DNA of 64,000 bases, taken from NCBI RefSeq assembly GCF_024346675.1, contig NZ_AP024851.1:62001-126000 (forward strand), given 5' to 3'. Source of the DNA: Photobacterium sanguinicancri (lineage in GTDB: Bacteria > Pseudomonadota > Gammaproteobacteria > Enterobacterales > Vibrionaceae). This document shows positions 26,173-49,012 of the stretch, piece by piece (position 1 is the stretch's first letter; every line of letters begins with the position of its first letter). The translations under genes were made by a program, and so were the position numbers. The notes under the pieces are model-generated. The model made no database searches. It saw nothing but the letters and a program-made list of their open reading frames with translations, and had not been told where the DNA came from.

Positions 26173-26317
26173 ACTATCAATTTGATAGTTTATTCTGGTG
26201 TTATTATTAATGTGATAGATATAGCATGTTTATATCACATTTTGTTTTTCTCATTATCTTATTTGTTTTTTCCTTGCGAGGTAATACCTATCAGTATGAT
26301 TAATATCAAACTGATAG
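26173..26317. promoter_or_regulatory. Activator-binding palindromes upstream of ygfK (TATCA-N3-TGATA)
   Basis: Three copies of one palindrome occur: 26173-26189 (ACTATCAATTTGATAGT, perfect), 26289-26301 (TATCA-GTA-TGATT) and 26304-26316 (TATCA-AAC-TGATA). They lie 190-330 bp before the sigma54 promoter, the usual distance for enhancer-binding activators. The same motif occurs upstream of ygfM and beside ygeV, so YgeV is the likely binder. Confidence 0.75.
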
Positions 26318-26505
26318 TTCTTTTATTAATATGATAGCCTTTTAATTTAATTAATAATCATCCTCATTTACGGGGTGTGTTTATTGATGGTTTCTTGTTG
26401 TAGATAAATTTGTTTCTTTTCCTTTAGTTATCAAAAACGCTGAATTTTCGACTTCGCTCACGAAATTAATTAATAAATTACTAGGTTTTAATAATGTTAA
26501 AAAGT

Positions 26506-26522
26506 TTGGCTTAGTAGTTGCT
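26506..26522 (+). promoter_or_regulatory. Sigma54 promoter of ygfK operon
   Basis: TTGGCTTAGTAGTTGCT has GG and GC separated by exactly 10 bases, matching the -24/-12 consensus. It lies about 95 bp before the ygfK start. Confidence 0.85.
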
Positions 26523-26615
26523 CTTTAGCTATTAACGTATTTATACGCTTTTGCCCTACACATTGTGTAAATAAACGTGCCTAGAAGAAAAAGAATAACA
26601 TCAAGGAGATCTATC

Positions 26616-29600
26616 ATGGGAGACATCATGCGTCCCGTTCCGTTCGGTGAGCTACTTAACCGAATGTTTAGTGAATATAAGCAAAGTAAATCTATCTTTG
26701 GTATTCCAGAAAAACAGTTCTACCGCAAAGCGAGCAACACTTCGTTGTCGGTATGGGGAGAGTACTGTGAAACCCCTGTTGGCCCAGCAGCTGGACCACA
26801 TACTCAACTTGCCCAGAATATCATTACATCATGGTTGGCGGGTGGCCGTTTCATGGAGCTGAAAACCGTCCAGAAGCTCGACCAACTTGAGCTAGCAAAG
26901 CCATGTATCGATGCGGAAGATGAGTGTTTCAATACCGAATGGTCGACCGAATTTACCCTTATTAAAGCGTATGATGAGTATCTGAAGGCATGGATTGCCT
27001 TGCACTTACTGCAAGAAGTCTTTGCGCCGCGAACAGACGGTGAGAATAAGTCATTTATCTTCAATATGAGTGTGGGTTATGACTTGTCTGGGATCCAGAC
27101 TCCACCAATGCAGAAATATATCCACGATATGCTCGATGCGAGTGAGCACCCCAATTTTGCCAGCTATACCAACGAGCTGAAAGCCTTCATCCAAGATCCC
27201 GAGTTTATTCGTGAGTATCAGCTAGAAGAAAAACGCGATCATTTGAATGCCATGATCGATGCGATTCCTGCCCAGTTAACCCGTGGTGTCACCCTTTCTA
27301 CTATGCACGGTTGTCCTCCTCATGAAATTGAAGCGATTTGTCGCTATATGATTGAAGAAAAGGGGATCAATACATTCGTTAAGCTGAATCCGACGTTATT
27401 GGGTTTTGAGCGTGTCCGTGGGATCCTCGACAATGCTGGCTTTGATTATGTCGCACTGAGCGAAGAGTCTTTCAGCCACGATCTACAAATCGAAGCGGCT
27501 AAAGAGATGCTGCACCGTTTGGTTGACCTAGGCAAAGAGAAAGGCATCGGCTTTGGTGTCAAGCTCACCAACACCCTAGGTACTCTAAATAAAAAAGGGC
27601 GCCTGCCTGATAAAGAAATGTACATGTCTGGCCGTGCCTTGTTCCCGCTGTCTATCAATGTGGCGTTAGAACTGTCCCGCGAATTCAACGGCACACTGCC
27701 AATCTCATACTCTGGTGGTGCCAGCAAATTCAATATCCGCGAGATCTTCGAAGCGGGGATCCGTCCTATCACTATGGCGACTGATTTGCTTAAACCTGGT
27801 GGTTACCTTCGTTTGGCCGATTGTGCCAAAGAGCTAGAAGGCAGCGACGAGTGGGGCATGGGCAAGGTCGACTTGGTTAAGCTAGAGGCATTAGCGGCAA
27901 AATCATTAGATGCTGATTATGTCCAAAAACAATGGCGTGGTCCTGAAGAAATCAGTGTCAAGAAAGCCGTGCCGCTGACTGACTGTTATGTCGCACCTTG
28001 TGTGACTGCGTGTCCTATCAGCCAAGATATTCCTGAATATATCCGTTTGATGGGCGAGCATAAGTACACCGAAGCGCTCGAAGTCATCTATGCCCGTAAT
28101 GCATTGCCTTCTATCACCGGCCATATCTGTGATCACCAGTGTCAGTACAACTGTACCCGTCGTGATTACGAAGGTGCGCTGAATATCCGTGAGATGAAGA
28201 AAATCGCCTTGTCCAAAGGCTGGGATGAGTACAAGTCTAAATGGCATGAGCCAAGCCTAGATACGGCCAAACACCCAGTAGCGGTGATCGGTGCCGGTCC
28301 TGCAGGACTTTCTGCTGCTTACTTCATGGCGCGTGCGGGTCACCCTGTCACCGTGTTTGAGAGAGAAAAAAATGCTGGTGGGGTGGTGAAAAATATTATC
28401 CCTCAGTTCCGTATTCCTGCTGAAGCGATAGAACACGATATCCAGTTCGTGAAAGATCACGGGGTGAATATTGAGTACGGCTGCAACCCAGAGCTGACAG
28501 TCGATGCACTTAAACAAAGTGGTTTCAAATATGTCTGCTTGGGTATAGGTGCTGATAAGGGCAACCCAATTGCATTGGCTGGTGGTAACACCAATATCTT
28601 CAAGTCGCTGGAATTCCTACGCAGCTTCAATGATGGCGAGCTGCAACAGTTAGGTAAACATGTGGCCGTTGTGGGTGCAGGTAACACCGCAATGGACAGT
28701 GCCCGTGCTGCATTGAAAGTACCGGGTGTTGAGAAGGTGACGATTCTTTATCGCCGTACTATCGCGGAAATGCCTGCCTACAAAGAAGAATATGAAGAAG
28801 CCGTGGAAGATGGCGTGCAGTTCATGTTCTTGACCAATCCAGAGCAGTTTGAGGCCAATGGTAAGTTGACCGCACGTGTAATGGAATTGGGTGAGCCGGA
28901 TGAAAAAGGACGTCGCCGCCCTGTTGCCACAGACATGACGATTGAGCTTCAGGTGGATGCCTTGATCACTGCGGTGGGTGAGCAGTCGAACTGCGAAGTG
29001 CTTTCTCGCATGGGGATCCCGATGGGAACAGACGGCTGGCCAGTTGTCGACAAAGAGAGTTGTGAAACAGAGGTTGAAAATGTGTTCTTGATGGGTGATG
29101 CCCATACAGGCCCATCGTCAATCGTGTCGGCAATCTCAGGTGGCCGTAAAGCGGCAACCGCTATTCTGGCCCGTGAAGCACAGGCCGATGAACAACTTGA
29201 AGCTAAATCTGATGTTCAGGTAGAAGCGGTATACGCGCGTAAAGGTGATATCCAGGTTAAGTTAATTGCAGCAAATCAGCTGGAAGAAGCGGACCGTGAG
29301 GAGTTCATCGATCAAGAAGCAAAACGCTGTTTGGAATGTTCGTACATTTGTAGCAAGTGTGTCGATGTCTGCCCGAACCGTGCCAATATTTCGCTGCCAA
29401 TTCCAGGCTTCCGTGACCAGTTCCAGACATTACACCTAGATGCGTACTGTAATGAATGTGGTAACTGTGCTCAGTTCTGCCCATGGGATAGCAAGCCGTA
29501 CAAAGACAAGTTCACGCTATTCAACTTGCGTGAAGACTTTGCCAACAGCACCAATGCCGGATTCTTCGTTGATGGTGAGGAAGTGTTGGTTCGCAGTCAC

Positions 29601-29732
29601 AGTGAGATTTATTCCTTCCGTATTAATGAGCAGGGCAACGTGGACATGCCAGAATCGCTAGCTGATGAAGCGACGATTATTAACTATGTCATGGCTAACC
29701 ACAGCTACCTGCTTGGCAAAGTAGACGTTTAG
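26616..29732 (+). CDS. ygfK: YgfK, flavin/Fe-S reductase of the purine cluster
   Basis: YgfK is a large GltD-like oxidoreductase, once called a selenate reductase subunit and now tied to anaerobic urate degradation. ATG 26616 is chosen because AAGGAG lies 7 bases upstream and the N-terminus (MGDIMRPVPF) matches E. coli YgfK; an upstream GTG lacks support. The 1038 residues comprise a dihydroorotate-dehydrogenase-like N-terminal part, a GltD-type Fe-S segment (Cys near 461-512), an FAD motif GAGPAGLSAA (about 558), an NAD(P)H motif GAGNTAMDS (about 684), and two C-terminal 4Fe-4S motifs (about 905-918 and 944-955). It probably moves electrons between NAD(P)H and the Mo enzymes. First gene of a five-gene operon. 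Confidence 0.93.
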   Translation: MGDIMRPVPFGELLNRMFSEYKQSKSIFGIPEKQFYRKASNTSLSVWGEYCETPVGPAAGPHTQLAQNIITSWLAGGRFMELKTVQKLDQLELAKPCIDAEDECFNTEWSTEFTLIKAYDEYLKAWIALHLLQEVFAPRTDGENKSFIFNMSVGYDLSGIQTPPMQKYIHDMLDASEHPNFASYTNELKAFIQDPEFIREYQLEEKRDHLNAMIDAIPAQLTRGVTLSTMHGCPPHEIEAICRYMIEEKGINTFVKLNPTLLGFERVRGILDNAGFDYVALSEESFSHDLQIEAAKEMLHRLVDLGKEKGIGFGVKLTNTLGTLNKKGRLPDKEMYMSGRALFPLSINVALELSREFNGTLPISYSGGASKFNIREIFEAGIRPITMATDLLKPGGYLRLADCAKELEGSDEWGMGKVDLVKLEALAAKSLDADYVQKQWRGPEEISVKKAVPLTDCYVAPCVTACPISQDIPEYIRLMGEHKYTEALEVIYARNALPSITGHICDHQCQYNCTRRDYEGALNIREMKKIALSKGWDEYKSKWHEPSLDTAKHPVAVIGAGPAGLSAAYFMARAGHPVTVFEREKNAGGVVKNIIPQFRIPAEAIEHDIQFVKDHGVNIEYGCNPELTVDALKQSGFKYVCLGIGADKGNPIALAGGNTNIFKSLEFLRSFNDGELQQLGKHVAVVGAGNTAMDSARAALKVPGVEKVTILYRRTIAEMPAYKEEYEEAVEDGVQFMFLTNPEQFEANGKLTARVMELGEPDEKGRRRPVATDMTIELQVDALITAVGEQSNCEVLSRMGIPMGTDGWPVVDKESCETEVENVFLMGDAHTGPSSIVSAISGGRKAATAILAREAQADEQLEAKSDVQVEAVYARKGDIQVKLIAANQLEEADREEFIDQEAKRCLECSYICSKCVDVCPNRANISLPIPGFRDQFQTLHLDAYCNECGNCAQFCPWDSKPYKDKFTLFNLREDFANSTNAGFFVDGEEVLVRSHSEIYSFRINEQGNVDMPESLADEATIINYVMANHSYLLGKVDV

Positions 29733-29746
29733 TGAGGAGTCAGGGA

Positions 29747-31075
29747 ATGTTAGTACTCAGAAACGCAACAGCGGTGCAGTTTGAGCCTGCACTGATCAAA
29801 GAAGGCGTCGATATTGTTATTGATGGCGATAAAATCAAGGAAGTTGGAGCCAATTTGGCTGCTAACTACCCTGATGCCGTCATCAAGGATATGGCCGGAA
29901 AACTGGTTATGCCGGGCATTGTCTGCTCTCACAATCACTTCTATTCGGGATTGGCGCGCGGGATCATGGCAGATATCAAGCCAAGCCCTGACTTCATTTC
30001 GATACTGAAGAACCTGTGGTGGCGAATGGACCGAGCGTTGGATGAAGAAGCGGTGTACTACAGCGGCTTGATTTGTTCACTCGAAGCCATCAAGTGCGGT
30101 TGTTCGTCGGTGATTGATCATCATGCATCGCCAAACTATATCGCAGGCTCTCTGAGCACCTTGCGTCAAGGGTTCATGAAGGCGGGCTTGCGGGGCATGA
30201 CTTGCTTTGAAACCACTGACCGTAACCACGGCATGAAAGAAATGGTGGCAGGCGTTGAAGAAAATATCGCGTTTGCCCAGTTGATTGACAGTGCGAAGGA
30301 GAAGGGTGAAGAACCTTACTTGGTCGAAGCCCATATCGGTGCACATGCGCCGTTTACTGTCACCAACGACGGCCTGTCTATGATGGCTGAAGCGGTACAG
30401 GCTACGGGTCGTGGGATCCATGTTCATGTGGCAGAAGATCGTTATGACGTGACCCATAGCCACCACCACTATAGCCAAGACATTGTTGAGCGTTTAGATA
30501 GCTTCGGCTTGATCAACGAGAAGACGTTACTGGCGCACGGTTTGTTCTTATCCGATAAGGATATTGCCATTCTGAACGGTAAAAACGCTTTCTTGGTCCA
30601 CAACGCCCGTTCGAATATGAACAACAGTGTGGGTTACAACGACAAACTGACGCGCTTCCAGCATGTCGCACTGGGTACTGATGGTATCGGGGCTGATATG
30701 TTTGAAGAGTTGAAGTTCGCCTTCTTCAAACATCGTGATGCGGGTGGTCCGTTATGGCCTGACAGTTTCTTGCGTCATCTATGGAACGGTAATGAAATTT
30801 TGGCCCGTAACTTCGGCGCGAAATTCGGTCGCCTAGATGCAGGCAATAAAGCGGACTTAACCATCCTTGATTACACCAGCCCGACGCCATTGGTTGCGGA
30901 TAACCTCGCGGGTCATGTTGCCTTTGGCTTCAATGCGGGCAATGTGAATAGCGTGGTGGTTGAAGGTCGCTTTGTTTATGAAGATCGAGCGTTCCCGTTC
31001 GATGTGGCGCCGATATACGCAGAGGCTCGCAAGGTCGCTAAGCGTTTATGGCAAACCATGGATCAGTTGGATTAA
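29747..31075 (+). CDS. ssnA: SsnA, amidohydrolase-family purine-cluster enzyme
   Basis: SsnA is a metal-dependent aminohydrolase of the guanine-deaminase/cytosine-deaminase superfamily. Metal ligands are visible in CSHNHFYSG (about 62-64), EAHIGAHAP (about 195), HVHVAED (about 226) and GTDGIGAD (about 312). The ATG at 29747 has GAGGAG 7 bases upstream; a GTG that overlaps the ygfK stop is less likely. At 442 residues it equals the E. coli protein and is highly similar along its whole length by inspection. It follows ygfK by 14 bp. It probably hydrolyses a ring or C-N bond in a reduced purine intermediate. Confidence 0.92.
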   Translation: MLVLRNATAVQFEPALIKEGVDIVIDGDKIKEVGANLAANYPDAVIKDMAGKLVMPGIVCSHNHFYSGLARGIMADIKPSPDFISILKNLWWRMDRALDEEAVYYSGLICSLEAIKCGCSSVIDHHASPNYIAGSLSTLRQGFMKAGLRGMTCFETTDRNHGMKEMVAGVEENIAFAQLIDSAKEKGEEPYLVEAHIGAHAPFTVTNDGLSMMAEAVQATGRGIHVHVAEDRYDVTHSHHHYSQDIVERLDSFGLINEKTLLAHGLFLSDKDIAILNGKNAFLVHNARSNMNNSVGYNDKLTRFQHVALGTDGIGADMFEELKFAFFKHRDAGGPLWPDSFLRHLWNGNEILARNFGAKFGRLDAGNKADLTILDYTSPTPLVADNLAGHVAFGFNAGNVNSVVVEGRFVYEDRAFPFDVAPIYAEARKVAKRLWQTMDQLD

Positions 31076-31089
31076 TGTGAGATCCCGTT

Positions 31090-33291: not shown

Positions 33292-33751
33292 ATTCTACCT
33301 TAATAGCGATCTTGTCGCTGTAGACGTTGAACCAATGCAGTCGCTGCTTCATACCTTACGCGGCACTATGGGGCAAACTGCAACCAAAGAAGGTTGTGGT
33401 GAGGGTGAGTGTGGCGCATGTTCTGTGCTGTTCAATGGACGATTGGTCAATGCTTGCATGATGCCTGTCAGTCAAGTTGAGGGCGGTGATGTCATGACGC
33501 TGGAGGGGTTACGGCAGACCGAAAAAGGCCTGTGCGTGATCAATGCCTTGCTCGAGGCAAAAGGGGTGCAGTGCGGGTTCTGTACCCCAGGGATGGTCTT
33601 AGCGCTTTATGCCTTGCTTGAGGTTGATCCTAATCCTTCTGAACATACTATTCGTACTGCTATTTCAGGCAATCTTTGTCGCTGTACGGGCTATGGGATG
33701 ATTGTTGAAGCCGCCAAGATTGCCGCGCAAAAAGGAGAGGGCTTATGGTAA
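33281..33751 (+). CDS. xdhC: Xanthine-dehydrogenase-like 2Fe-2S subunit
   Basis: The 156-residue protein holds two 2Fe-2S clusters: C-x4-C-x2-C with a later Cys in KEGCGEGECGACSV...NAC (about residues 36-60), and CGFC...CRC (about 98-134). It carries electrons from the Mo centre to FAD. ATG 33281 overlaps the end of the Mo-subunit gene and has GGAG upstream. The gene order Mo, Fe-S, FAD differs from E. coli xdhA-B-C. It overlaps the FAD gene by 7 bp. Confidence 0.9.
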   Translation: MKIEFYLNSDLVAVDVEPMQSLLHTLRGTMGQTATKEGCGEGECGACSVLFNGRLVNACMMPVSQVEGGDVMTLEGLRQTEKGLCVINALLEAKGVQCGFCTPGMVLALYALLEVDPNPSEHTIRTAISGNLCRCTGYGMIVEAAKIAAQKGEGLW

Positions 33752-34638: not shown

Positions 34639-34676
34639 TTTTACTCTATCTCGTGTTTTCCTTTGTTACTTTAGTT

Positions 34677-35364: not shown

Positions 35365-36156
35365 TTATGAAGAATACTGCATCGACTTTAGGTGTAGCGT
35401 GTTCATAAATAATCTTGGGTCAGCAAGATTATTGAGCATTGATTGAGTGGGTAAGCAATCATCATCGACGTAGTCGACATAATCAGCCGCCGAATCAAAA
35501 ATCAAAATATCCAGCGCCAAACGATCTAATCCGTATAGACCGCGGTGGATCATATCTGCTGAAAACACCAATAAGTCGCCCGCCGCTAACGCAATCTGCT
35601 TACCGCCAGAGATGCTATCATTGCTCACTTTGCCATTCACTTCTTGACGAACATTGTACTCTTCTTCATTGTCCCATCGCTTGTGCGTTCCGGGGATGAG
35701 CTCCATACCTGGCTCATCAAATAAGGGTATGCGAAGGTGCAACACTTGCGTTTCTAGTATGACTTTCATTTGGTCTTCAATGTCATAGTCATATTGACAG
35801 TCTCGATGCCAGAAGTCTTTTTGCTGCGGACTCACGGGGTTGAAGAACAGTTGCGTATTCATGAACGCAGGGTTTTCCGGTATCACCGCATCGACCACTT
35901 CCATGATTTTTTGGGAGCTGATGAAGTCAAAAAGTATGGCTCTATCGTCACTGGGCAAGTATTCGCTTCCCGTAATTAAAGACGAGTTAAACGCTTCTTC
36001 TTGATAGAATTCTTCGTTGTCTGCTTTCCATAATTCATGGAATTTCAATACCACTTTTCTAAGCGATGCAATTTGAGTTTCATCGAAATAATTTCTGAGA
36101 ACAAAGTAACCATGCTCGTCGTAACTGTTACTTAATTGTTGGCTGTTTTCTAACAC
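35365..36156 (-). CDS. Phytanoyl-CoA-dioxygenase-like Fe(II)/2-oxoglutarate oxygenase
   Basis: This 263-residue protein fits the PhyH family, which hydroxylates C-H bonds using Fe(II), O2 and 2-oxoglutarate. The metal triad is visible as HRD (H117, D119) and MIHRG (H204), with R212 (LDRLALDI) as the 2-oxoglutarate ligand. The start is a GTG at 36156 with AAGG eight bases upstream. It is a lone gene between a small hypothetical gene and a 356-bp gap. An O2-dependent enzyme inside an anaerobic purine cluster is odd, so it was probably inserted independently. Substrate unknown. Confidence 0.8.
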   Translation of the reverse strand: MLENSQQLSNSYDEHGYFVLRNYFDETQIASLRKVVLKFHELWKADNEEFYQEEAFNSSLITGSEYLPSDDRAILFDFISSQKIMEVVDAVIPENPAFMNTQLFFNPVSPQQKDFWHRDCQYDYDIEDQMKVILETQVLHLRIPLFDEPGMELIPGTHKRWDNEEEYNVRQEVNGKVSNDSISGGKQIALAAGDLLVFSADMIHRGLYGLDRLALDILIFDSAADYVDYVDDDCLPTQSMLNNLADPRLFMNTLHLKSMQYSS

Positions 36157-36512
36157 TGACTACCTTCACACTCTTTGTGCCGTTGACTGAGTACCGTTGA
36201 CTGACCACGGCGTTCTTTCGCGCATGATGCCAGACTGGCGTCATTCAACCAAGTAACTAATTAGGGGACAACTAGCGATAGCCTCGTTAAGAAAGGCAAC
36301 CATTAATCCGTTTCATGGGCTTGTAGTTTCAGAGTCCAAATACCGATTGGGATAGCTAACTGGCTATGCTGAGAGTAGACCCTGTCGGTATTATTGATTT
36401 ACAAAATAGGACCAAAACAGCTAAAGAAAAGCACCGAGAAGCTATACAATACTCGTGTTGCGAGGTCGCAGCATGGGATACTCATTCATAGAAAACCTCA
36501 AAGTAGCCACAT
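36157..36512. other. 356-bp gap with a 14-bp tandem duplication
   Basis: Two tandem copies of CCGTTGACTGASYA lie at about 36180-36207. No gene or RNA structure is otherwise visible. The divergent neighbours must have their promoters here. Confidence 0.45.
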
Positions 36513-37007
36513 ATGTCTAAAGATTTTGATTTCACCATAGAATACACCCTCGACAAGTCCTTTTATACCGAGTGTTATGATCAAACTAGCCGTCCGGCTG
36601 AATTTCCAAAAGCCTATTTAAAGGGAATACTTTTTCTTATTTTTGGGGTGGTTTTAGTTAAATTTGAGTTACTACCCAGCGGCTACGTTGGTTGGTTCTT
36701 TATTGTTCTGAGTATTATTGAGGCGCTGAGTGTTTACTTTAAGAGAACCTGGTGGTTATGGCGACAAACATTCAGCATGAGCTTTGGCAGCAAAGTGGTC
36801 TTTCATGTTGACGCTAACGGTGTGAATTATAAAAGCGGTAAAAACACCCGTAACATCGCTTGGAGTGACATCGACCAACTTCAACAAAGCGATTTAGGTT
36901 TTATCCTTCATATGGGTAAACAGCGCCAATACGTCAGTAAATCTTGCTTAAATGATGAAGTGATCGCGTTCATGGTAGAGCAGCACGCAGTATCAAAAAA
37001 GAACTAA
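36513..37007 (+). CDS. YcxB-like membrane protein (164 aa)
   Basis: The protein has two adjacent hydrophobic segments (about residues 35-52 and 56-74) and a C-terminal soluble domain with the pattern VVFHVDANGVNYKSGKNTRNIAWSDIDQLQ, which resembles the YcxB-like PH-type domain found in many bacterial membrane proteins. Function of that family is unknown. The gene stands alone and converges with the CIA30 gene 28 bp downstream. Confidence 0.65.
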   Translation: MSKDFDFTIEYTLDKSFYTECYDQTSRPAEFPKAYLKGILFLIFGVVLVKFELLPSGYVGWFFIVLSIIEALSVYFKRTWWLWRQTFSMSFGSKVVFHVDANGVNYKSGKNTRNIAWSDIDQLQQSDLGFILHMGKQRQYVSKSCLNDEVIAFMVEQHAVSKKN

Positions 37008-37034
37008 CGTCATCACTGGCTATATAGCAATGCC

Positions 37035-37661
37035 TTAGGGGTGATTATATTCACTTGCTTCCTGCGAGTTTTTAAATTGAATCTGGATTAGATTCAGCGC
37101 AAAGGGGCCAGGCTGCTTATCGGCAATGAGTAACCCAACTTGTTTAGTATCTTGGGCTGTAAGCTCAGGTGCGTCGCTGAGAAGTCGCCCTCTAAATACC
37201 GCTTGAAACTTGTTTAGGTCAAAGACCTTCTCCTGCCGTTGTCCTTTGATGGTAGTAAACTCGTGCTTGTAAGTGATTCTATTACCGCTCTTCCATGTTG
37301 CGAGCCTCAGTTGATAGCGGCGGCCATCACCGATAAACCTCACTGCTACTCGATCAACCTCGAAGGGCAGGGGGCCAATCGCTCGATTGATCGAACTGAA
37401 GCCACCATTCTTGTCTAGTGATATCTCCCCCCAAAAACGACTCGATTGACCATCAAAAGTGAGTTGTCCTTGCGAAATGCCCCCCATCACGTTGTCGTTA
37501 GTTGCTTCCCACTGCTGGTGTTCGTTAGCTTGTGTTAAGTCGATCATAATGGTTCCTGATGAAATAACCGTGTTGGATAATGCGCTGGAGGCACTGAGCA
37601 AAAAACAGAGTGTCGTTATTAATTTAACAGTGGAGAGGAAGTGAGTGTTCACATTGCTCAT
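37035..37661 (-). CDS. CIA30-family protein, exported (208 aa)
   Basis: A hydrophobic N-terminus (about residues 10-30, ending SSALSN) is a probable signal peptide. The rest matches the CIA30/NDUFAF1-type beta-sandwich: WEATNDNVMGGISQGQL, FWGEISLDKNGGFSSI and the distal DLNKFQAVFRGR. In bacteria the family is uncharacterised and may bind carbohydrate-like ligands. The ATG overlaps the stop of the upstream 93-residue gene by 4 bp (ATGA), so the two are translationally coupled. Confidence 0.8.
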   Translation of the reverse strand: MSNVNTHFLSTVKLITTLCFLLSASSALSNTVISSGTIMIDLTQANEHQQWEATNDNVMGGISQGQLTFDGQSSRFWGEISLDKNGGFSSINRAIGPLPFEVDRVAVRFIGDGRRYQLRLATWKSGNRITYKHEFTTIKGQRQEKVFDLNKFQAVFRGRLLSDAPELTAQDTKQVGLLIADKQPGPFALNLIQIQFKNSQEASEYNHP

Positions 37662-38058: not shown

Positions 38059-38092
38059 TATCATATTGATAGTCCCTGATATTATTTTGATA
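38059..38092. promoter_or_regulatory. Activator-binding palindromes upstream of ygfM (TATCA-N3-TGATA)
   Basis: Two copies: 38059-38071 (TATCA-TAT-TGATA, perfect) and 38080-38092 (TATTA-TTT-TGATA, one mismatch), 21 bp apart and so on the same face of the helix. They lie 160-190 bp before the sigma54 promoter at 38251. Confidence 0.78.
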
Positions 38093-38250
38093 TCACTATG
38101 CTCCGTAGTGATAACCGTTATTATTTAGGTGTTTAGGTCGAGAACATTCAACAAATAAAAAGGAATATTTGTCCCGATGGTGATGCCAATTTGGGCTAAA
38201 TTTCTGACTCCGCTCACGAATATTTTCCTTAGAAGATCAGTTTTAGCAGC

Positions 38251-38267
38251 TTGGCGTGTTTGTTGCC
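38251..38267 (+). promoter_or_regulatory. Sigma54 promoter of ygfM-xdhD
   Basis: TTGGCGTGTTTGTTGCC has GG and GC 10 bases apart, matching -24/-12, about 95 bp before the ygfM start. A 15-bp box GACTCCGCTCACGAA at 38206-38220 also recurs upstream of ygfK (26450-26464, one mismatch). Confidence 0.85.
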
Positions 38268-38362: not shown

Positions 38363-39157
38363 ATGATTGAACAATATCTAACGCCTGACACCCCTGCTCA
38401 GGCACTTGAATTTAAGCAATTGCATGGCAATGACGCCATTTGGTTTGCTGGGGGATCTAAAATCAATGCAGCACCCACTAAAACTGATAAAACGATAGCT
38501 ATCTCTTTGGGGAGACTGAATTTATCCCAGATCGAGCAGCAAGGCGATAGCTTACATATTGGTGCGATGTGCCATATCCAGCAGTTGATAGACCATGAAC
38601 TTGTCCCTGTGGCCTTAAAGCAATCTGCTGCGTTTATCTATTCCCGTCATATTCGTAATCAGGCCACCTTGGGTGGTGAGATTGCCGCACGACAGCCAGA
38701 GGCGTTATTGATACCCAGCCTACTGGCGCTGAAAGCAACACTGAAACTGGCTAACGGGCAGGAGATGGATGTTGAAGATTACATCAACAACGATGAGCGA
38801 GCGCTTATCGCGACTGTCATTATCCCAGATAGCAGCCTGACTTGTATTGGTTACAACATTGCCCGCTCTGCGGCGGGGCTAGCGATTGTGACTGCAGCAG
38901 TATCGATTGATAAACAAGGTAATAAGGTCATCGCGCTTGATGGCGTTTCGCCGTTGTATCAAGGTGCGGCTCGTCCCGTTCGTCTCCGTGATGTAGAAGC
39001 GCAAGATCTAAAAGGTGAGCTGCTAGAGCAAGCTGTTGCCGATGCTATTTACCCAGAAGCCGATATTCGCGGCGGTGTGGAATACAAGCGATATATCGCA
39101 GGTGTTGTGATCACGGATTTGATGGCTGAATGTCAGCACATGGTAGAGGAGGCATAA
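38363..39157 (+). CDS. ygfM: YgfM, FAD subunit partner of XdhD
   Basis: YgfM is a CO-dehydrogenase-type FAD-binding subunit. The motifs are IWFAGGSKINAAP (about 26-38, the first flavin loop) and SRHIRNQATLGGEIAARQPEA (about 93-113, the second). At 264 residues it is close to E. coli YgfM (259). It lacks the normal C-terminal FAD-subunit domain length of XdhB (297). It ends 2 bp before the xdhD start, whose binding site GAGGAGG is inside the ygfM end, so the two are tightly coupled. Confidence 0.9.
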   Translation: MIEQYLTPDTPAQALEFKQLHGNDAIWFAGGSKINAAPTKTDKTIAISLGRLNLSQIEQQGDSLHIGAMCHIQQLIDHELVPVALKQSAAFIYSRHIRNQATLGGEIAARQPEALLIPSLLALKATLKLANGQEMDVEDYINNDERALIATVIIPDSSLTCIGYNIARSAAGLAIVTAAVSIDKQGNKVIALDGVSPLYQGAARPVRLRDVEAQDLKGELLEQAVADAIYPEADIRGGVEYKRYIAGVVITDLMAECQHMVEEA

Positions 39158-39159
39158 TC

Positions 39160-42030
39160 ATGACGATTCAATTTACCTTAAATGGCCGTCCTCAATCTTT
39201 GGAATGCCGTATTGGCGAAAATGTACAGACATTGCTGCATTCTATGGGTTACCACTCGGTTCGAAATAGCGATGATGGTTGGGGTTATGCGGGGTCAGAT
39301 GTGATCCTGCTTAATGGCGAATTAATTAACGCCTCTTTGCTGATTGCAGCTCAACTTGAAGGTGCTGAAGTGAAAACAGCGGAAGCCCTTGGCGAGTGGA
39401 ATCAGTTAAGTTTAGTTCAGCGGACGATGATCGATGTGGGCGTGGTGCAATCGGGTTATAACGACCCTGCATTAGCGCTGATATTGACCGATCTGCTTGA
39501 ACGAATTCCGCAGCCAACGCGCGATGAAATTGATGATGCGCTATCTGGGTTGTTTAGCCGAGATGCAGGTTATCAGCAGTTTTATGAAGTGGTTGAATTG
39601 GCAGTGAAACGCCTTGACGATCCTGCTTACACTCAACATTTTGCACCAGAATTTCGTGATGACTTAGCAGTGGTTGGTAAGAACTGTCCGAAGATTGACT
39701 CGGCGAAGATGGTGCAGGCCAAACCTTGTTATGTTGAAGATCGCATTCCAGCTAACGCTTGTGTTATTAAGATGCTGAGAAGTCCGCACGCTCATGCTTG
39801 GATCAAGCACCTAGATGTGTCTAAAGCCGAAGCACTAACGGGTGTGGTATCTGTGATAACGCACAAAAATTGCCCAGATATTCCTTATACACCCGGTGGC
39901 CAGAGTGCACCTGAGCCGTCACCGCTCGATCGCCGTATGTTTGGCCAAAAACTGCGCCATGTGGGTGACCGTGTTGCTGCTGTTGTCGCTGAATCAGTGG
40001 AAATAGCAGAGCAGGCATTGACACTGATCGACGTCGAATATGATGTGCTTAAGCCTGTCATGAGTATTGATGAGGCGATGGCCGCTAATGCCCCTATCAT
40101 TCACAACGAGCCTATCGAATATGGCGTAGGTGCGCCTGATGATTTAGAAGAGCAGAACCGTAACGCCGATCCGCGTGAAGGTAAGTTAATCGTGAATTTC
40201 CCGATTGGTTGCTTCCCGCGCAAAAATATTGCCGCCAGTGTTCGCGGCCATATCGGTGATCTCAATAAAGGCTTTGCTGAAGCGGATATGATTATCGAAC
40301 GTACTTACGAGTCGAAGCAGGTTCAACAACTGCCAGTTGAAACCCATATTTGTTACAGCTATATGGATGGTGATCGTATTGTGATGCACGATTCGACTCA
40401 GGTTCCTTGGCACGTGCGCCGTCAGGTAGCAAAAATTCTTGATGTGAAGCAGAACAAAGTACACATCGTTAAAGAACGTGTCGGTGGTGGATACGGCTCG
40501 AAACAAGATATTTTGTTGGAAGATGTGTGTGCATGGGCAACTTGGACCACTGGTCGTCCGGTGTATTTCCACCACACCCGTGAAGAAGAATTTATCTGTA
40601 ACTCAACCCGCCACGTTGCCAAAGTGGTGGTGAAACTCGGTGCGAAGAAAGACGGAACACTCACGGCGATTGATATGGATTTCCGTGCCAACACTGGCCC
40701 TTATGGAAACCACGCGTTGACCGTGCCATCAAATGGTCCCGCCTTGTCTCTACCTTTGTACCCTTGTGACAATGTGGACTTCAGGGTAACAACGTATTAC
40801 TCCAATATTTGCCCGACAGGGGCTTATCAGGGTTACGGTGCGCCGAAAGGCAACTATGCACTGACGATGGCGATGGCCGAAATGGCGAAAGAGCTGGGTA
40901 TTGACCATCTTGATATGGTTGAGAAGAACCGTGTGGTTGAAGGCCAAGAGCTGAAAATCCTAGCAGCTATCGGTGAAGGTAAAATGCCTGCCAGTGCCCC
41001 TAAAGTTCACAGCTGCGCCCTTGGGCCTATTTTGCGCGAAGGTCGTAAGTTGATTGAGTGGGACAGCCCGAAACAGGATGACGGCGAATGGAAAGTGGGC
41101 CGTGGTGTGGCGATTATCCAGCAAAAATCCGGCATTCCAGATATCGATCAAGCTAACTGCCAAATCAAAATGGCATCGGATGGTACCTTCATTGTTCACT
41201 CTGGTGCCGCTGATATAGGGACGGGCCTTGATACAGTGATCAGCAAACTGACCGCTGAAGTGCTTTGCTGCCCGATGGATGAAATTACGATTCACTCTGG
41301 TGATACCGATCATGCTCCGTTTGATAAAGGGGCTTACGCCTCATCTGGAACATGTTTCTCAGGTAATGCGGCCAAGCGAGCTGCTGAAGCGATGCGTGAG
41401 AAAATCCTTAAGTGCGGCGCTGAAATGTTGGGTGAACCCGTTGAAGATGTCGCTATTGTGGCGCCAGGCTTGGTGAAAGGTAAGCAGGGAGAAGTGAACT
41501 ACTTCGATATTGCCCACAAAGCGGAAAGCGGAACAGGGTGGGGGCAATTACTGGCTTCAGGTTGTTTCACCACCCCAGAATTTGCCTTCCCTTATGGCGC
41601 AAACTTCGCTGAGGTGGCAGTCAATACGCGTACGGGTGAAATCCGTCTTGATAAGTTCCATGCCTTGCTCGACTGTGGTACGCCCGTTAACCCTGATTTA
41701 GCGTTGGGACAGATTTACGGTGCCAGTATGCGAGCCATTGGTCACAGCTTATATGAAGAGCTGATTTATGATGAGCATGGTGTACCTGTAACGCGAGATT
41801 TGAAGAGCTATGGCGCGCCGATGATTGGCGATATCCCTCGCGATTTCAAAGCGGTGTTAGTACCAAGTGACGATCCGGTTGGCCCTTACGGTGCGAAATC
41901 GATTTCTGAAATTGGTGTTAACGGTGCCGCTCCAGCGATTGCCAGTGCAATTCATGATGCATGTGGCGTCTGGATTCGAGATTGGCACTTTACACCTGAG
42001 AAGGTTCTACACGGTCTGAATAAGCTTTAA
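39160..42030 (+). CDS. xdhD: XdhD, molybdenum hydroxylase with a degenerate Fe-S domain
   Basis: XdhD fuses a ferredoxin-like N-terminus to the Mo-binding domains of xanthine dehydrogenase; 956 residues, the same as E. coli XdhD. AGGAGG at 39146-39151 selects ATG 39160. Cofactor loops are RVGGGYGSKQD (about 440) and TGAYQGYGAPKGN (about 552); the catalytic Glu is in GAKSISEIGVNGA (about 915). The N-terminal domain keeps the fold (VRNSDDGWGYAGSD, about 33-46; GVVQSGYNDPALAL, about 94-107) but every 2Fe-2S cysteine is replaced. Electrons must therefore come or go through another partner, plausibly YgfM and YgfK. It probably acts on xanthine or urate. Selenium is suggested by yqeB and yqeC. Confidence 0.94.
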   Translation: MTIQFTLNGRPQSLECRIGENVQTLLHSMGYHSVRNSDDGWGYAGSDVILLNGELINASLLIAAQLEGAEVKTAEALGEWNQLSLVQRTMIDVGVVQSGYNDPALALILTDLLERIPQPTRDEIDDALSGLFSRDAGYQQFYEVVELAVKRLDDPAYTQHFAPEFRDDLAVVGKNCPKIDSAKMVQAKPCYVEDRIPANACVIKMLRSPHAHAWIKHLDVSKAEALTGVVSVITHKNCPDIPYTPGGQSAPEPSPLDRRMFGQKLRHVGDRVAAVVAESVEIAEQALTLIDVEYDVLKPVMSIDEAMAANAPIIHNEPIEYGVGAPDDLEEQNRNADPREGKLIVNFPIGCFPRKNIAASVRGHIGDLNKGFAEADMIIERTYESKQVQQLPVETHICYSYMDGDRIVMHDSTQVPWHVRRQVAKILDVKQNKVHIVKERVGGGYGSKQDILLEDVCAWATWTTGRPVYFHHTREEEFICNSTRHVAKVVVKLGAKKDGTLTAIDMDFRANTGPYGNHALTVPSNGPALSLPLYPCDNVDFRVTTYYSNICPTGAYQGYGAPKGNYALTMAMAEMAKELGIDHLDMVEKNRVVEGQELKILAAIGEGKMPASAPKVHSCALGPILREGRKLIEWDSPKQDDGEWKVGRGVAIIQQKSGIPDIDQANCQIKMASDGTFIVHSGAADIGTGLDTVISKLTAEVLCCPMDEITIHSGDTDHAPFDKGAYASSGTCFSGNAAKRAAEAMREKILKCGAEMLGEPVEDVAIVAPGLVKGKQGEVNYFDIAHKAESGTGWGQLLASGCFTTPEFAFPYGANFAEVAVNTRTGEIRLDKFHALLDCGTPVNPDLALGQIYGASMRAIGHSLYEELIYDEHGVPVTRDLKSYGAPMIGDIPRDFKAVLVPSDDPVGPYGAKSISEIGVNGAAPAIASAIHDACGVWIRDWHFTPEKVLHGLNKL

Positions 42031-42042
42031 TCAATGCGAAGG

Positions 42043-42078
42043 CGGTCATTTCCAGTGGATGGGAATGGCCGTTTTTTT
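42043..42078 (+). terminator. Terminator after xdhD
   Basis: An 11-bp stem with wobble pairs (CGGTCATTTCC at 42043, GGGAATGGCCG at 42061) and seven T residues. Confidence 0.85.
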
Positions 42079-42166
42079 GTCAGGGTATCGACGGGTAAGC
42101 AGGGATAGGCTCTGGTTGATCACGTTGTAAAGGCCCTAGTGTTTCACTGGTACGGATGGAACTGAA

Positions 42167-43573: not shown

Positions 43574-43660
43574 GTTTTAGACAGAACGAATTTAATAAAA
43601 ATGAGAGCTGGAAAAAACGGTGCCCTACCACTGACCAGCACAGAAAGATAAGAGGTAATT

Positions 43661-44977: not shown

Positions 44978-44982
44978 ATTTC

Positions 44983-44998
44983 ACGCAAACGGTTTCGG
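44983..44998. promoter_or_regulatory. PurR-type operator upstream of ghxQ
   Basis: ACGCAAACGGTTTCGG matches the PurR consensus ACGCAAACGTTTGCGT at 13 of 16 positions, including the entire left half site. It lies 14 bp before the -35 element of the ghxQ promoter. This suggests repression by PurR with hypoxanthine or guanine. Confidence 0.65.
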
Positions 44999-45012
44999 TG
45001 AAAAATGATTTT

Positions 45013-45043
45013 TTGACAATGCAGGGTGAGTGAAGCGTATAAT
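45013..45043 (+). promoter_or_regulatory. Sigma70 promoter of ghxQ
   Basis: TTGACA (45013-45018) and TATAAT (45038-45043) are both consensus hexamers but are 19 bp apart, longer than the optimal 17. The predicted transcript has a leader of about 230 nt. Confidence 0.65.
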
Positions 45044-45121
45044 CGCCGCCAATTTACCTTGCTCAGCCTCGGTTATTTGCTCTAGGGATATTCCTTATGG
45101 GGATTGATGGGTTCTGTTAAC

Positions 45122-45283
45122 TGGGGTTGTGTCGATAAAAGACAGCAACATTTATAGCGTTACGGACAAGTCACAGCCCCAAGAAAGCAATCGATTGCAA
45201 CGGGGCGGGTTGAGAGGAAGCTCAACGTTTATCGAGGTGTTCAGGCAGCGAGCCGGACACTCAATTTTACAAGGAATTACATC
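45122..45283 (+). promoter_or_regulatory. Structured leader of ghxQ, possible riboswitch or attenuator
   Basis: TGGGGTTGTG (45122-45131) pairs with CACAGCCCCA (45172-45181) to give a 10-bp stem with one G-U, enclosing a domain with an ATAAA/TTTAT helix and a 9-base purine-rich loop. Downstream are GCAATCGATTGC (a 12-bp palindrome, 45187-45198), a GTTGAG/CTCAAC hairpin (45209-45225) and a further GTGTTC/GGACAC pairing. I cannot match it to a known riboswitch from memory. Binding of a purine is inferred only from the gene it precedes. Confidence 0.45.
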
Positions 45284-46666
45284 ATGTCTGAGAATAGTTC
45301 GATTCATCATGAATCCACAGTTGTAGAAGAAGACACATCTCGTAAAGGCGGGTTGGATGGATATTTTAAAATTTCCCAACGCGGTAGTAGCGTAAAACAA
45401 GAAGTGGTCGCCGGTTTGACGACATTTCTGGCAATGGTGTATTCGGTCATTGTAGTGCCGAGTATGCTGGGTGCAGCTGGATTTAACCAAGGGGCGGTGT
45501 TTATTGCTACTTGTCTAGTTGCTGCGTTTGGTTCACTGCTAATGGGGCTTTGGGCAAACTTGCCGATGGCTATTGGTTGTGCGATCTCCCTTACCGCGTT
45601 CACCGCATTTAGTTTGGTGTTAGGGCAGGGGATCAGTATTCCGGTTGCGCTAGGTGCCGTATTCTTAATGGGGGTCGTGTTCACAGCTATTACCGTCACG
45701 GGTGTGCGCCAATGGATACTGACTAACTTGCCTTCAGGAATCGCGCACGGAACGGGTATCGGTATTGGTTTGTTTTTGCTACTGATTGCGGCTAATGGTG
45801 TCGGTTTGGTGGTGCAAAACCCTCATGCAGGCCTACCTGTTGCATTGGGTGAGTTCACTTCGTTACCTGTCTTGATGTCGATTATTGGATTAGCCGCAAT
45901 TTTCGGTCTTGAGAAGCGTCAAGTTCCCGGTGGTATTCTGCTGGTGATTGTTGCTATTTCTATCTTTGGCCTGATATTCGATCCTAATGTGACTTACCAA
46001 GGCCTGTTTGCGATGCCATCGTTTGGTGGGGAAGGTGAGTCGTTATTGGGTACCATGGATATTATGGGGGCATTGAATCCCGTTGTGATCCCAAGTGTGT
46101 TGGCATTGGTGATGACGGCTATTTTTGATGCAACTGGTACTATCCGTGCCGTTGCTGGTCAGGCGAAACTATTGGATAAAGACGGTCAAATCATTGATGG
46201 TGGTAAAGCACTAACTTCAGATTCCGTTAGTAGTATTTTTGCTGGCTTTGTTGGTGGAGCACCTGCGGCTGTGTATATCGAATCAGCAGCAGGTACTGCT
46301 GCTGGTGGTAAAACTGGCCTGACTGCAACGGTTGTTGGTGGCCTGTTTGTATTACTACTGTTCTTGTCGCCACTGAGTTATTTGGTACCAGCTTACGCTA
46401 CGGCGCCAGCTTTGATGTACGTTGGTCTGCTTATGATGAGCAACGTAAGCAAGTTGGATATGGCTGACTCAGTCGATGCGCTATCTGGCCTTATGTGCGC
46501 AGTATTTATTGTACTAACAGGTAATATCGTTACTGGTATTATGCTTGGCTTTGGTTCTTTGGTGATTGGTCGAGTAGTTTCTGGTGAGGCGAAACGCTTG
46601 AATGTCGGAACCGTCATCATTGCCATTGTGTTGGTCGCCTTCTACGCAGGAGGTTGGGCAATTTAG
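45284..46666 (+). CDS. ghxQ: GhxQ/AzgA-type guanine-hypoxanthine permease
   Basis: A 460-residue NCS2-related AzgA-family transporter with about 12 spans. Family features are [16 protein letters not shown] in span 1 (about 45-60), [12 protein letters not shown] (about 96), [19 protein letters not shown] (about 155), [17 protein letters not shown] (about 282) and [16 protein letters not shown] (about 327). AAGGA lies before the ATG. Position after guaD matches E. coli ghxQ (ygfQ). It imports guanine and hypoxanthine. Its own PurR-like box and leader separate its control from the sigma54 genes. Confidence 0.9.
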
Positions 46667-46676
46667 TTTTGACTAT

Positions 46677-46762
46677 GCTCCCTTTAGTTGCTGCCATAGT
46701 AAAAGTAGGCAGCAACTGAAGGAGCTTATAAAAGCTGATGAGATCTACCCCCAGCTTTTATA
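46677..46762. terminator. Double hairpin between convergent ghxQ and ygeV
   Basis: First hairpin: GCTCC...TTAGTTGCTGCC at 46677-46695 pairs with 46709-46726. Second: TATAAAAGCTG (46728-46738) pairs with CAGCTTTTATA (46752-46762). There is no long T-run, so termination would be weak or Rho-assisted. Confidence 0.6.
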
Positions 46763-46840
46763 TCGTGATCTAATCCAAGGCCCCCCCTTGGTGAACAGTA
46801 ATCTTACCTGATACCTTACTCATTGTTGGTATTCATAGTG

Positions 46841-46892
46841 AGTGGCTATGGTAAGTAACTATGCTAAGTGACTATGCTAAGTGACTTATGGT
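46841..46892. repeat. 13-bp tandem repeat, four copies
   Basis: AGTGGCTATGGTA, AGTAACTATGCTA, AGTGACTATGCTA and AGTGACTTATGGT lie head to tail, ending 31 bp before the ygeV stop. No function is apparent. Confidence 0.75.
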
Positions 46893-46923
46893 GACTGGCT
46901 ATGGTGTGTCACCAGCCATTGAA

Positions 46924-48681
46924 TCAAGAGGTTCTATGGTTATTGAGCTCGTATTTTTTGATTTTACGATACAAGGTTGCAATACCTATCCCTAGCTCTT
47001 CGGCTACCATTTTGCGGTTACCAAGACGATATATCGCTTCCTCAATACGGTTCCTTTCCATATCTTCTAAGCTCATCGAGTAATCATCGTTATAGGCTTC
47101 CTCTGGGCATGCAGCTTCTGGTGCTTGCTCAAAATGTGGAGGAAGCAAGTCAATGTCGATTTGGTCCCCTTCAGGTACGATGTTGACAAGATATTCAATT
47201 AAATTGCTGAGCTCGCGTACATTCCCCGGCCAATGATAGGCATTAAGACGGCGCATGGCTTCAGCACTTATCCCTGGGTAGACCACACCGATTTTTTGGG
47301 TGTGATACTCAAGAAAGTAGTTAGTCAGCAATGCTATATCCCCTTCTCGTTCCCTTAGAGGTGGCAGTTGAAAAGGGATCACGTTAAGGCGGTAATACAA
47401 ATCTTCTCTGAATTTATTGGTCGCAATCATTTCTTGGAAATTATGATTGGTCGCTGAAATAATCCTGATATCCACCGGGACAGCATCATTGGAACCAATC
47501 GGCATAACTTTACGTTCTTCCAGTACACGTAGCAGTTTCGCTTGCAGCGTCATTGGCATGTCGCCAATTTCATCAAGAAAGAGGGTTCCTTTGTTAGCGG
47601 CTTGGATCAAGCCGTTTTTGCCCTTATTAGAGGCGCCAGTAAACGCTCCTTTGACATAACCAAACAACTCACTTTCCAACAAGGGTTCGGGAATAGCGGC
47701 ACAGTTGATGGCAATAAATGGTGATTGGCTTCGATCACTGAGGTTATGTACTGCGTTTGCAATAACCTCTTTACCAGTGCCGCTTTCACCATTAATCAGT
47801 ACGCTTGAAGGGCTGCTAGCAACACGGGTGATCATCTTTTTGAGTTGGCGCATCTTGGTCGATTCACCAATGACAGTACTGAGAAGCGAGCTATGATCTT
47901 GAATCATCAAGTCGCTATTGGTTTGATGATAAGCCATCAAAAATAATTGCTGACCTTGTGTATTATAAAATTGACCAACTATTAATTTCTGCCATTCTCC
48001 TTGTGAAATAATATGTTGTTGGTGGCTTTTTATTTCATTATTGTGAAGTGACAATGATTGAATTTTAATTTCAAGGTTATATAACTCATCTTGGGTTATA
48101 TTCAAATTCTTAAGTGCTGGCTGGTTGCCGTATTTTACTCGGTTGTTTTCATCAAGCACTAATACGCCTTGGTCCATGTTTTCAATAAGATGAGTAAACA
48201 CCTCATCAAGACCTTTATTTTTACTATTCTTTTCGACAACTTTGGATACAACTATTTGCGCTATGTGTTTAACGTAGTCTGAGAAAAGTTGGACATTGTC
48301 CTTGATTCTTTCTCGTGAATCTTCAGTGAATGCGACGAGGCTGATCACCCCTAAACATCGATCTTCGATCATGATTGGCACACCAAGGAAGGCCATTTCA
48401 CGACAAGAGCTTTTGTTTTTACACCCCTCACATAACGGGTCTGTTCTAGATTTGACTACAACTTTTTCTTCATTTGTCTCAATGATATACCTGAAAATTC
48501 TTGAGCTTGTGTTTAGTTTTTTGCCAAAAAATTTACTATAGGGACCAGTACCTGCAATTCGAACCAAATCGGCATCGACAACTTCGGCGTCAATTTTTAA
48601 CACCGCCGACAACATTTGGGTGAACCGAAGGATTGTTGGTTGCAACTGCATTAATTCTGAAGGAGAGGTAGTGTTCTGCAT
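46924..48681 (-). CDS. ygeV: YgeV, sigma54-dependent transcriptional activator
   Basis: YgeV is the enhancer-binding regulator of the purine cluster. The 585 residues comprise an N-terminal GAF-like sensor with a Cys cluster C84-x2-C87-x5-C93, a PAS-like segment (about 160-240), the AAA+ core with Walker A GESGTGKE (about 298-305), the sigma54-contacting GAFTGA (about 345-350) and Walker B LFLDEIGD (about 368), and a Fis-type helix-turn-helix at 550-580 (MVAEELGIGIATLYRKIKKY). It is divergent from ygeW, with a TATCA-N3-TGATA site between them. It probably activates the sigma54 promoters at 26506, 38251 and 48996 in response to a purine or redox signal. Confidence 0.93.
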   Translation of the reverse strand: MQNTTSPSELMQLQPTILRFTQMLSAVLKIDAEVVDADLVRIAGTGPYSKFFGKKLNTSSRIFRYIIETNEEKVVVKSRTDPLCEGCKNKSSCREMAFLGVPIMIEDRCLGVISLVAFTEDSRERIKDNVQLFSDYVKHIAQIVVSKVVEKNSKNKGLDEVFTHLIENMDQGVLVLDENNRVKYGNQPALKNLNITQDELYNLEIKIQSLSLHNNEIKSHQQHIISQGEWQKLIVGQFYNTQGQQLFLMAYHQTNSDLMIQDHSSLLSTVIGESTKMRQLKKMITRVASSPSSVLINGESGTGKEVIANAVHNLSDRSQSPFIAINCAAIPEPLLESELFGYVKGAFTGASNKGKNGLIQAANKGTLFLDEIGDMPMTLQAKLLRVLEERKVMPIGSNDAVPVDIRIISATNHNFQEMIATNKFREDLYYRLNVIPFQLPPLREREGDIALLTNYFLEYHTQKIGVVYPGISAEAMRRLNAYHWPGNVRELSNLIEYLVNIVPEGDQIDIDLLPPHFEQAPEAACPEEAYNDDYSMSLEDMERNRIEEAIYRLGNRKMVAEELGIGIATLYRKIKKYELNNHRTS

Positions 48682-48813
48682 ATTGTTTTAACTATTCCTT
48701 TAATGACAAAATTAGCATAAATGAAAACAAAACAGACTGTTTGGATATTTGTCCGATTTTTCTAATTGAAAAGGCCAAAATGGAATGCTTTTGTTACCAA
48801 GATCATCTTTAAA

Positions 48814-48826
48814 TATCAAAATGATA
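48814..48826. promoter_or_regulatory. Activator-binding palindrome between ygeV and ygeW
   Basis: TATCA-AAA-TGATA is a perfect copy of the motif found upstream of ygfK and ygfM. Half sites follow at 48845-48849 (TATCA) and 48877-48882 (TGATAG). It lies 170 bp before the sigma54-like promoter of ygeW and 133 bp from the ygeV start, so it could also autoregulate ygeV. Confidence 0.75.
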
Positions 48827-48995
48827 TTCCATCACTCTTATCACTATCATTTTGGCGTAAAGGGCTGATACATCTTTGATAGTTTTTATGCAATTTAACT
48901 TTCCTTTTTTATATCAGAGCACTTAATACCTCTTACGGCCCAGTATCTATGGGGAGGGGAAGGTTATTTATAAATAATCTTAGTGGACGTTAATA

Positions 48996-49012
48996 TTGGC
49001 ACAATTGTTGAT
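48996..49012 (+). promoter_or_regulatory. Sigma54-like promoter of ygeW
   Basis: TTGGCACAATTGTTGAT has a perfect -24 element (TTGGCAC) and spacing, but the -12 element ends GA instead of GC. It lies about 145 bp before the ygeW start. Confidence 0.6.

Follow-up and report, generated by a model that had tools for sequence, protein, structure and literature searches.

TATCA-N3-TGATA as the predicted enhancer of the sigma54 activator YgeV in purine-degradation gene clusters

The DNA analyzed here is a 64-kb stretch of the genome of the marine bacterium Photobacterium sanguinicancri (contig NZ_AP024851.1, positions 62,001 to 126,000), referred to below as the window. It carries a gene cluster with which bacteria degrade urate and other purines anaerobically, a process now studied in connection with gout. 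Three promoters of the cluster are preceded by copies of a 13-bp palindrome, TATCA-N3-TGATA, which is very probably the enhancer (upstream activating sequence) of the sigma54 activator encoded by ygeV. The first target is ygfK (26616..29732, + strand), which encodes a putative oxidoreductase. Its ATG at 26616 follows AAGGAG, and the protein, scanned from the GTG at 26577, scores 1711 bits on TIGR03315 against a cut-off of 835. The ygfM-xdhD operon (38363..42030, + strand) encodes FAD and Mo/Fe-S subunits that exceed the cut-offs of TIGR03312 and TIGR03313. The third target, ygeW (49158..50345, + strand; start MKSINEL), encodes a putative carbamoyltransferase with the Pfam domains OTCace_N and OTCace that is 84% identical to E. 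coli YgeW. On the opposite strand, ygeV itself (46924..48681, - strand) encodes a protein of 585 residues that, judged by its domains and motifs, is a sigma54 enhancer-binding activator with GAF-like, PAS-like, AAA+ and Fis-type helix-turn-helix (HTH) parts.

Both exact and one-mismatch copies of the palindrome were counted. Exact copies occur at 26175, 26304, 38059 and 48814 in the window, where 100 dinucleotide shuffles averaged 0.06 copies and never gave more than 1; one-mismatch copies at 26205, 26289, 26324 and 38080 lie in the same intergenic regions. Upstream of ygfK, the exact predicted operator TATCAATTTGATA (26175..26187), centered 327 bp from the -24 GG, has a one-mismatch tandem partner, TATTAATGTGATA (26205..26217), at a centre-to-centre distance of 30 bp. 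Closer to the promoter are the one-mismatch copy TATCAGTATGATT (26289..26301; centre 213 bp from the -24 GG), the exact copy TATCAAACTGATA (26304..26316; 198 bp) and the one-mismatch tandem partner of the latter, TATTAATATGATA (26324..26336). This last copy has a counterpart elsewhere: a half-site TGATA or TGAGA about 20 bp past the main site recurs across a 16-sequence alignment. Upstream of ygfM-xdhD, the exact copy TATCATATTGATA (38059..38071; centre 188 bp from the -24 GG) is paired with the one-mismatch copy TATTATTTTGATA (38080..38092; 167 bp), and the ygeV/ygeW intergenic region contains the exact copy TATCAAAATGATA (48814..48826; 178 bp). The exact copies thus number two, one and one for ygfK, ygfM-xdhD and the ygeV/ygeW region, and those within one mismatch five, two and one. 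An earlier, sequence-only reading of this DNA had identified the palindrome and its three locations, both of which are borne out; its counts of three, two and one match neither tally.

Each group of copies lies upstream of a -24/-12 element on the + strand. The sigma54 promoters of ygfK (TTGGCTTAGTAGTTGCT, 26506..26522) and ygfM-xdhD (TTGGCGTGTTTGTTGCC, 38251..38267) show the full GG-N10-GC pattern in a TTGGC..TTGC context, and that of ygeW (TTGGCACAATTGTTGAT, 48996..49012) reads GG-N10-GA. Operator centres are located 178-327 bp from the -24 GG at ygfK, 167 and 188 bp at ygfM and 178 bp at ygeW; this overall range of 167-327 bp agrees with the 100-330 bp given by the sequence-only reading. 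Operator-promoter distances also hint at helical phasing with a best period of 9.7-9.8 bp (P 0.0014 over periods 9.8-11.2), but since the distances were collapsed by hand and R at 10.5 bp is as low as 0.41, this is regarded as suggestive and was left out of the evidence.

In the whole genome (5.55 Mb, two contigs), the exact palindrome occurs at 21 places and the reversed pattern at 3. The sequence-only reading had set beforehand that the motif should be more frequent in these intergenic regions than in the rest of the genome, and this is the case, because 4 of the 21 copies fall inside the 1,344 bp of the three intergenic stretches (binomial P 2e-11). The other 17 sites have no tandem copy and no strict -24/-12 element within 500 bp, and none was accepted as a new regulon member outside the cluster. 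Tandem pairs are absent from this genome outside the window.

The palindrome is conserved in relatives of the cluster. Regions of up to 600 bp 5' of ygfK, ygfM and ygeW were collected, with a first set of 57 regions that includes E. coli K-12; one region of this set (L051) is counted as empty since it was reversed, and another (L043) duplicates the window. The 57 regions contain 66 exact copies and 112 within one mismatch, compared with 2 and 10 for the best of 29 permuted half-sites. Spacing between the half-sites is equally restricted, with 66 exact matches for N3 and at most 10 for any other spacing from 0 to 9. Among ygfK regions that had no part in motif discovery (17 genomes queried, 16 with the gene), the site is present in 16 of 16, as an exact copy in 15 and as two one-mismatch copies in the remaining one; other half-site permutations give no exact match in these 16 regions. 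One genome, G135, is nearly identical to an earlier-used one, and L205 and L159 come from near-identical genomes. Across the full set, which spans Photobacterium to E. coli, 75 of the 83 regions carry an exact site, and 82 carry one with at most a single mismatch; the sole exception is E. coli ygfM, about 50 bp after ssnA. This search of E. coli and other clusters had been proposed as a check by the sequence-only reading. The region counts are not independent, because the sequences are related and one is duplicated. In six of the 16 genomes, all of genus g315 (L198-L203), ygeV stands apart from the queried cluster genes, in that no other such gene scores above 150 bits within the fetched 0.2-10 kb on either side of it; ygfK, located elsewhere, keeps the operator.

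E. coli K-12 links these sites to measured promoters. Chromatin immunoprecipitation sequencing (ChIP-seq) gave at least four sigma54 sites for this cluster, OS29-OS32, which correspond to xdhA, ygeW, ygfK and ygfT (PMC4591121). Inspection of the sequence gave -24/-12 elements for xdhA (CTGGCGTAAATCTTGCC) and ygeW (CTGGCACACTTATTGTT), and both were included in a sigma54 matrix of 15 words, which picks GTGGTGCGATTGTTGCT for ygfK; the three elements coincide with OS29, OS30 and OS31 (PMC4591121). A by-eye choice of the ygfK promoter at L016:18963 was dropped, as both the matrix and the ChIP-seq table point to 18972. In addition, independent selection experiments with RpoN (SELEX, systematic evolution of ligands by exponential enrichment) list a site between ygeV and ygeW (PMC8743547). 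Predicted operators lie upstream of these four sigma54 sites: 127 and 106 bp away at xdhA (one and two mismatches), 307, 209 and 180 bp at ygeW (one, one and two mismatches), 177 bp at ygfK (exact) and 174 bp at ygfT (one mismatch). Five intergenic copies within one mismatch are present in the 37-kb E. coli stretch, all of them upstream of xdhA, ygeW, ygfK or ygfT.

The tandem arrangement of the palindrome is closely associated with YgeV. Searches of 197 genomes of the family detected xdhD in 26 (E up to 1e-200) and YgeV in the identical 26 (E up to 1e-180). A tandem form, defined as an exact copy followed after 4-20 bp by another in which position four is C or T, was found in 24 of the 197 genomes. 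Each of these 24 belongs to the 26 that have YgeV, the other 171 genomes have no such pair, and the reversed control gave 0. The association has a hypergeometric P of 7e-29, with kinship ignored. The tandem form was listed at 51 distinct places, and 28 of the 29 that were fetched are beside ygfK or ygfM. The 29th, L224 (G099:C1:2456), lies beside decayed remnants of mocA and yqeC and is possibly the relic of a second or moved cluster. Counts of single copies were also considered as a regulon detector and rejected, given no clear difference between genomes of the genus with and without YgeV. Because single copies occur regardless of YgeV, the presence of the motif is not enough to define the regulon, and either a tandem arrangement or a linked -24/-12 element is required as well.

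By its domains, YgeV is a predicted ATP-dependent activator of sigma54-RNA polymerase, with the domains and motifs of bacterial enhancer-binding proteins. Its Sigma54-interaction AAA+ domain (PF00158) scores 247 bits against a cut-off of 20.2, with Walker A GESGTGK at residue 298 and GAFTGA at 345, the latter invariant in 45 of 45 relatives. These 45 were picked for alignment from 120 listed. The C-terminal Fis-type HTH (PF02954) scores 41.9 bits against 22 over residues 537-577. In the alignment, the HTH (residues 538-576; 46954..47070, - strand) includes the recognition region LGIGIATLYRKIKKY, which is nearly invariant in 34 proteobacterial YgeV orthologues and differs in three other relatives compared (L064, L067, L084). 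The sequence-only reading had regarded ygeV as the sole sigma54-activator gene of the window; consistent with this, tblastn with the AAA+ domain across the window returned ygeV itself and one further match at E 0.32.

YgeV scores below the cut-off of each NCBIfam model among the best 25 of 32 matching families. PrdR (NF041552) is nearest, at 398.1 bits against a cut-off of 795. Assignments to NorR (324.2 against 476), NifA (330 against 528.85), NtrC (314.4 against 558.6), PrpR (312.8 against 499.2) and FhlA (274.2 against 830) were likewise rejected. The closest named YgeV proteins among the matches listed are from P. sanguinicancri, P. swingsii and P. jeanii. A class-wide search of 369 genomes at E up to 1e-170 found YgeV in this genome only. 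When contigs were scanned more widely with YgeV, 79 loci were returned, most of them other activators in which just the AAA+ domain matched; around these loci, tblastn with 11 cluster proteins detected only xanQ-like permeases, at three of them. Genome G011 has two YgeV genes about 0.36 Mb apart (L167, L168), each 61% identical to that of the window.

Between operator and promoter, many ygfK and ygfM regions, as well as that of E. coli ygeW, contain a box resembling a CRP site, located at about 42, 53, 73 or 84 bp upstream of the -24 GG. In the window, this box is TTCGACTTCGCTCACG at ygfK (26447..26462), a conserved block with three mismatches to TGTGA-N6-TCACA and its centre 53 bp from the -24 GG, and TCTGACTCCGCTCACG at ygfM (38203..38218), with two mismatches and its centre at 42 bp. 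The best match at the ygeW promoter of the window has four mismatches, and ygeW regions of the genus show none closer than three. TGTGA-N6-TCACA is perfect upstream of E. coli ygfK. Over 83 segments, TGTGA ranks first of 30 permuted half-sites, with 31 matches within two mismatches compared with 15 for the next. CRP was selected in vitro on E. coli ygfK, ygeV-ygeW and ygfT-ygfU DNA (PMC3105977), and another study mentions glucose repression as well as a native Crp site in the ygeV-ygeW interval (PMC12507026). The boxes suggest a glucose input to the pathway. A further conserved stretch, roughly TNATNCTCATT, lies between the operators and the CRP-like box in ygfK upstream regions (26340-26380 in the window, L016:18865-18890 in E. 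coli) and is possibly a degenerate half-site.

Tandem palindromes ahead of -24/-12 elements, together with a predicted activator that has GAFTGA and a Fis-type HTH, fit an enhancer model. In this model, YgeV dimers would bind one or more copies of the palindrome, which frequently form tandem pairs spaced about 20 or 30 bp from centre to centre and lie mostly 120-330 bp upstream of the -24/-12 element. Bound YgeV would then oligomerize and loop onto sigma54-RNA polymerase, and ATP hydrolysis by the AAA+ domain would open the ygfK, ygfM-xdhD and ygeW promoters, as well as those of xdhA and ygfT in E. coli. We infer the binding, oligomerization and looping of YgeV, and the signals it would read, from computed sites, their conservation and spacing, and their links to YgeV and to sigma54 elements. 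The model of the palindrome as a YgeV binding site, as first put forward by the sequence-only reading, is supported by the conserved motif with its spacing and sigma54 element, the link between tandem copies and YgeV, the nearly unchanged recognition helix, and the operators upstream of the E. coli ChIP-seq sites.

Several observations weigh against YgeV as the factor acting at the palindrome. All counts are inflated by close relatives. In this genome, 17 of the 21 exact copies lie outside the three intergenic regions, and genomes of the genus contain 5-52 exact single copies each, with YgeV present or not. Two genomes, G011 and G169, have YgeV and no tandem pair of the searched form; single copies are present in both, and G169 also has an imperfect pair. 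The E. coli copies are mostly imperfect, with an exact one at 1 of 4 promoters, and a sixth copy in the 37-kb stretch, which is exact, lies inside ygeX. OS32, at ygfT, is a weak sigma54 match with a position-specific scoring matrix value of 4.5 (PMC4591121). ybiY, an unlinked member of the E. coli YgeV co-expression group, was considered as an operator target and rejected, as no operator was found upstream of it. Finally, YgeV and the cluster co-occur, and co-occurrence therefore cannot separate YgeV from another cluster-linked factor.

This last point leaves room for a different protein at the palindrome, such as one that represses or additionally activates purine or molybdenum metabolism, or a further sigma54 activator encoded elsewhere, with YgeV using a different element. 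Possible candidates include two LysR regulators encoded in the window and the other activator-like genes of this genome, 31 of which were first-look candidates for the YgeV query. We nevertheless consider such a factor unlikely: the only regulators annotated in the 37-kb E. coli stretch are YgeV and the IS2 repressor, the copies lie 5' of the -24 and are repeated in tandem, as fits an enhancer, ygfK keeps the operator where ygeV stands apart, and tandem copies are missing from all family genomes without YgeV. A distinct proposal is that the conserved block TTTC(T/G)GA-N6-TCACGAA near the promoter is the activator site and the palindrome an accessory. The block does recur in many ygfK and ygfM upstream regions at the positions given above for the CRP-like boxes, but it fits the CRP consensus, which ranks first among 30 permutations, nothing close to it is found at the window's ygeW promoter, and CRP has been selected on the corresponding E. 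coli DNA (PMC3105977). This makes the proposal very improbable. Least credible is an origin of the palindromes in AT-richness, chance or DNA structure, with no dedicated protein. The motif is indeed AT-rich and has many copies per genome, yet these regions contain hardly any permuted half-sites made of the same letters, the spacing is strict, and the motif is conserved between genera despite diverged intervening DNA.

For E. coli, part of this system is already published: the regulon has been described in the form of a co-expression group, sites of sigma54 have been mapped, and CRP has been selected on DNA of the cluster. The YgeV iModulon of E. coli K-12 (PRECISE 2.0 list) comprises xdhABC, ygeWXY, hyuA, ygfK, ssnA, ygfM, xdhD, ygfT and uacT (PMC12132413), and thus has the same regulator and largely the same targets as those described here. 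In contrast to the present prediction, it is a co-expression group for which the available text gives no operator, and it also lists ybiY and rcsB (PMC12132413). The ChIP-seq study mapped promoters rather than activators or enhancers, and the word ygeV is absent from its text (PMC4591121). In the literature searched on ygeV, the iModulon, the cluster genes and urate with sigma54, to the extent of the text available and with RegulonDB and subscription papers outside the search, no published YgeV operator was found, in agreement with the sequence-only reading, and the operator is counted as new on this basis. That reading had gone further in stating that motif and promoters define a YgeV regulon; the operator stands, but a regulon had already been proposed as the iModulon, so only the operator is new, and the motif by itself is non-defining. 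The result is a new, well-supported predicted operator for a known kind of regulator.

Related regulators have been described in other settings. DioR of Clostridiales is a predicted sigma54 activator of ygeW-ygfK-ssnA-ygeY, yqeB, pbuX and dpaL-pyrC-argE (PMC6615313; also named in PMC11448449). It was found by the same logic of enhancer motif plus sigma54 site in a different phylum (PMC6615313), and its predicted gene set resembles that of YgeV. IsrR is the YgeV of enterohaemorrhagic E. coli, encoded by the same gene. Work on it concerned virulence regulation in response to indole, and the main text of that paper contains none of the terms 'binding site', 'palindrom' and 'EMSA' (PMC9426417). 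An explicit operator would let one regulator, YgeV, switch on the pathway. With it, what was a co-expression group also becomes a direct regulon open to testing, with a 13-bp target for binding assays and a tie to measured E. coli sigma54 sites, and further YgeV-bearing genomes can be examined by the rule of a tandem operator accompanied by a -24/-12 element.

The N-terminal part of YgeV suggests which signals may be integrated. Four cysteines of the GAF-like domain, C84, C87, C93 and C109 (CX2CX5CX15C; 48355..48432, - strand), are invariant in 45 of 45 aligned relatives; L064, which has a different HTH, retains three of the four. The structure model of YgeV (mean predicted local distance difference test score 76.5, predicted template modelling score 0.45) shows a GAF-like order of strands and helices followed by a PAS-like one. 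No Pfam GAF match was found in YgeV of the window, and the PAS-like part has a weak match to the WalK PAS domain (E 0.0023). The GAF/PAS fold rests on the secondary-structure order of the model, because little beyond the AAA+ part was matched when the complete model was used in a fold search. As modelled, the four cysteines suggest a candidate metal or Fe-S sensor and hence a redox input. VnfA, the sigma54 activator of the vanadium nitrogenase, similarly has a conserved-cysteine GAF domain with a proposed Fe-S site ahead of its AAA+ and DNA-binding domains (PMC9542535). The likeness drawn here is one of domain order, and YgeV has an additional PAS-like part. We tentatively propose, with considerable doubt, that YgeV is gated by redox state or oxygen through a metal or Fe-S cluster on these cysteines and is active at the palindrome only anaerobically, with CRP bending the DNA in the usual place of integration host factor (IHF). 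If so, purine degradation would need anoxia, low glucose and a purine signal together at a sigma54 promoter. This design would be kept from Photobacterium to E. coli, with CRP placed 42-84 bp upstream of the -24 at helical intervals.

YgfK, SsnA, YgfM and XdhD all score above curated NCBIfam cut-offs. YgeW, YgeX, YgeY, a hydantoinase-type amidohydrolase, YqeB, YqeC and MocA are backed by Pfam domains and, except for the amidohydrolase, are similar to genes of E. coli or of the fetched relatives. The cluster is split by genes with PhyH, YcxB and CIA30 domains at 35365-37661, between the xdh genes and the ygfM promoter. The two LysR regulators are encoded at 56552-58482.

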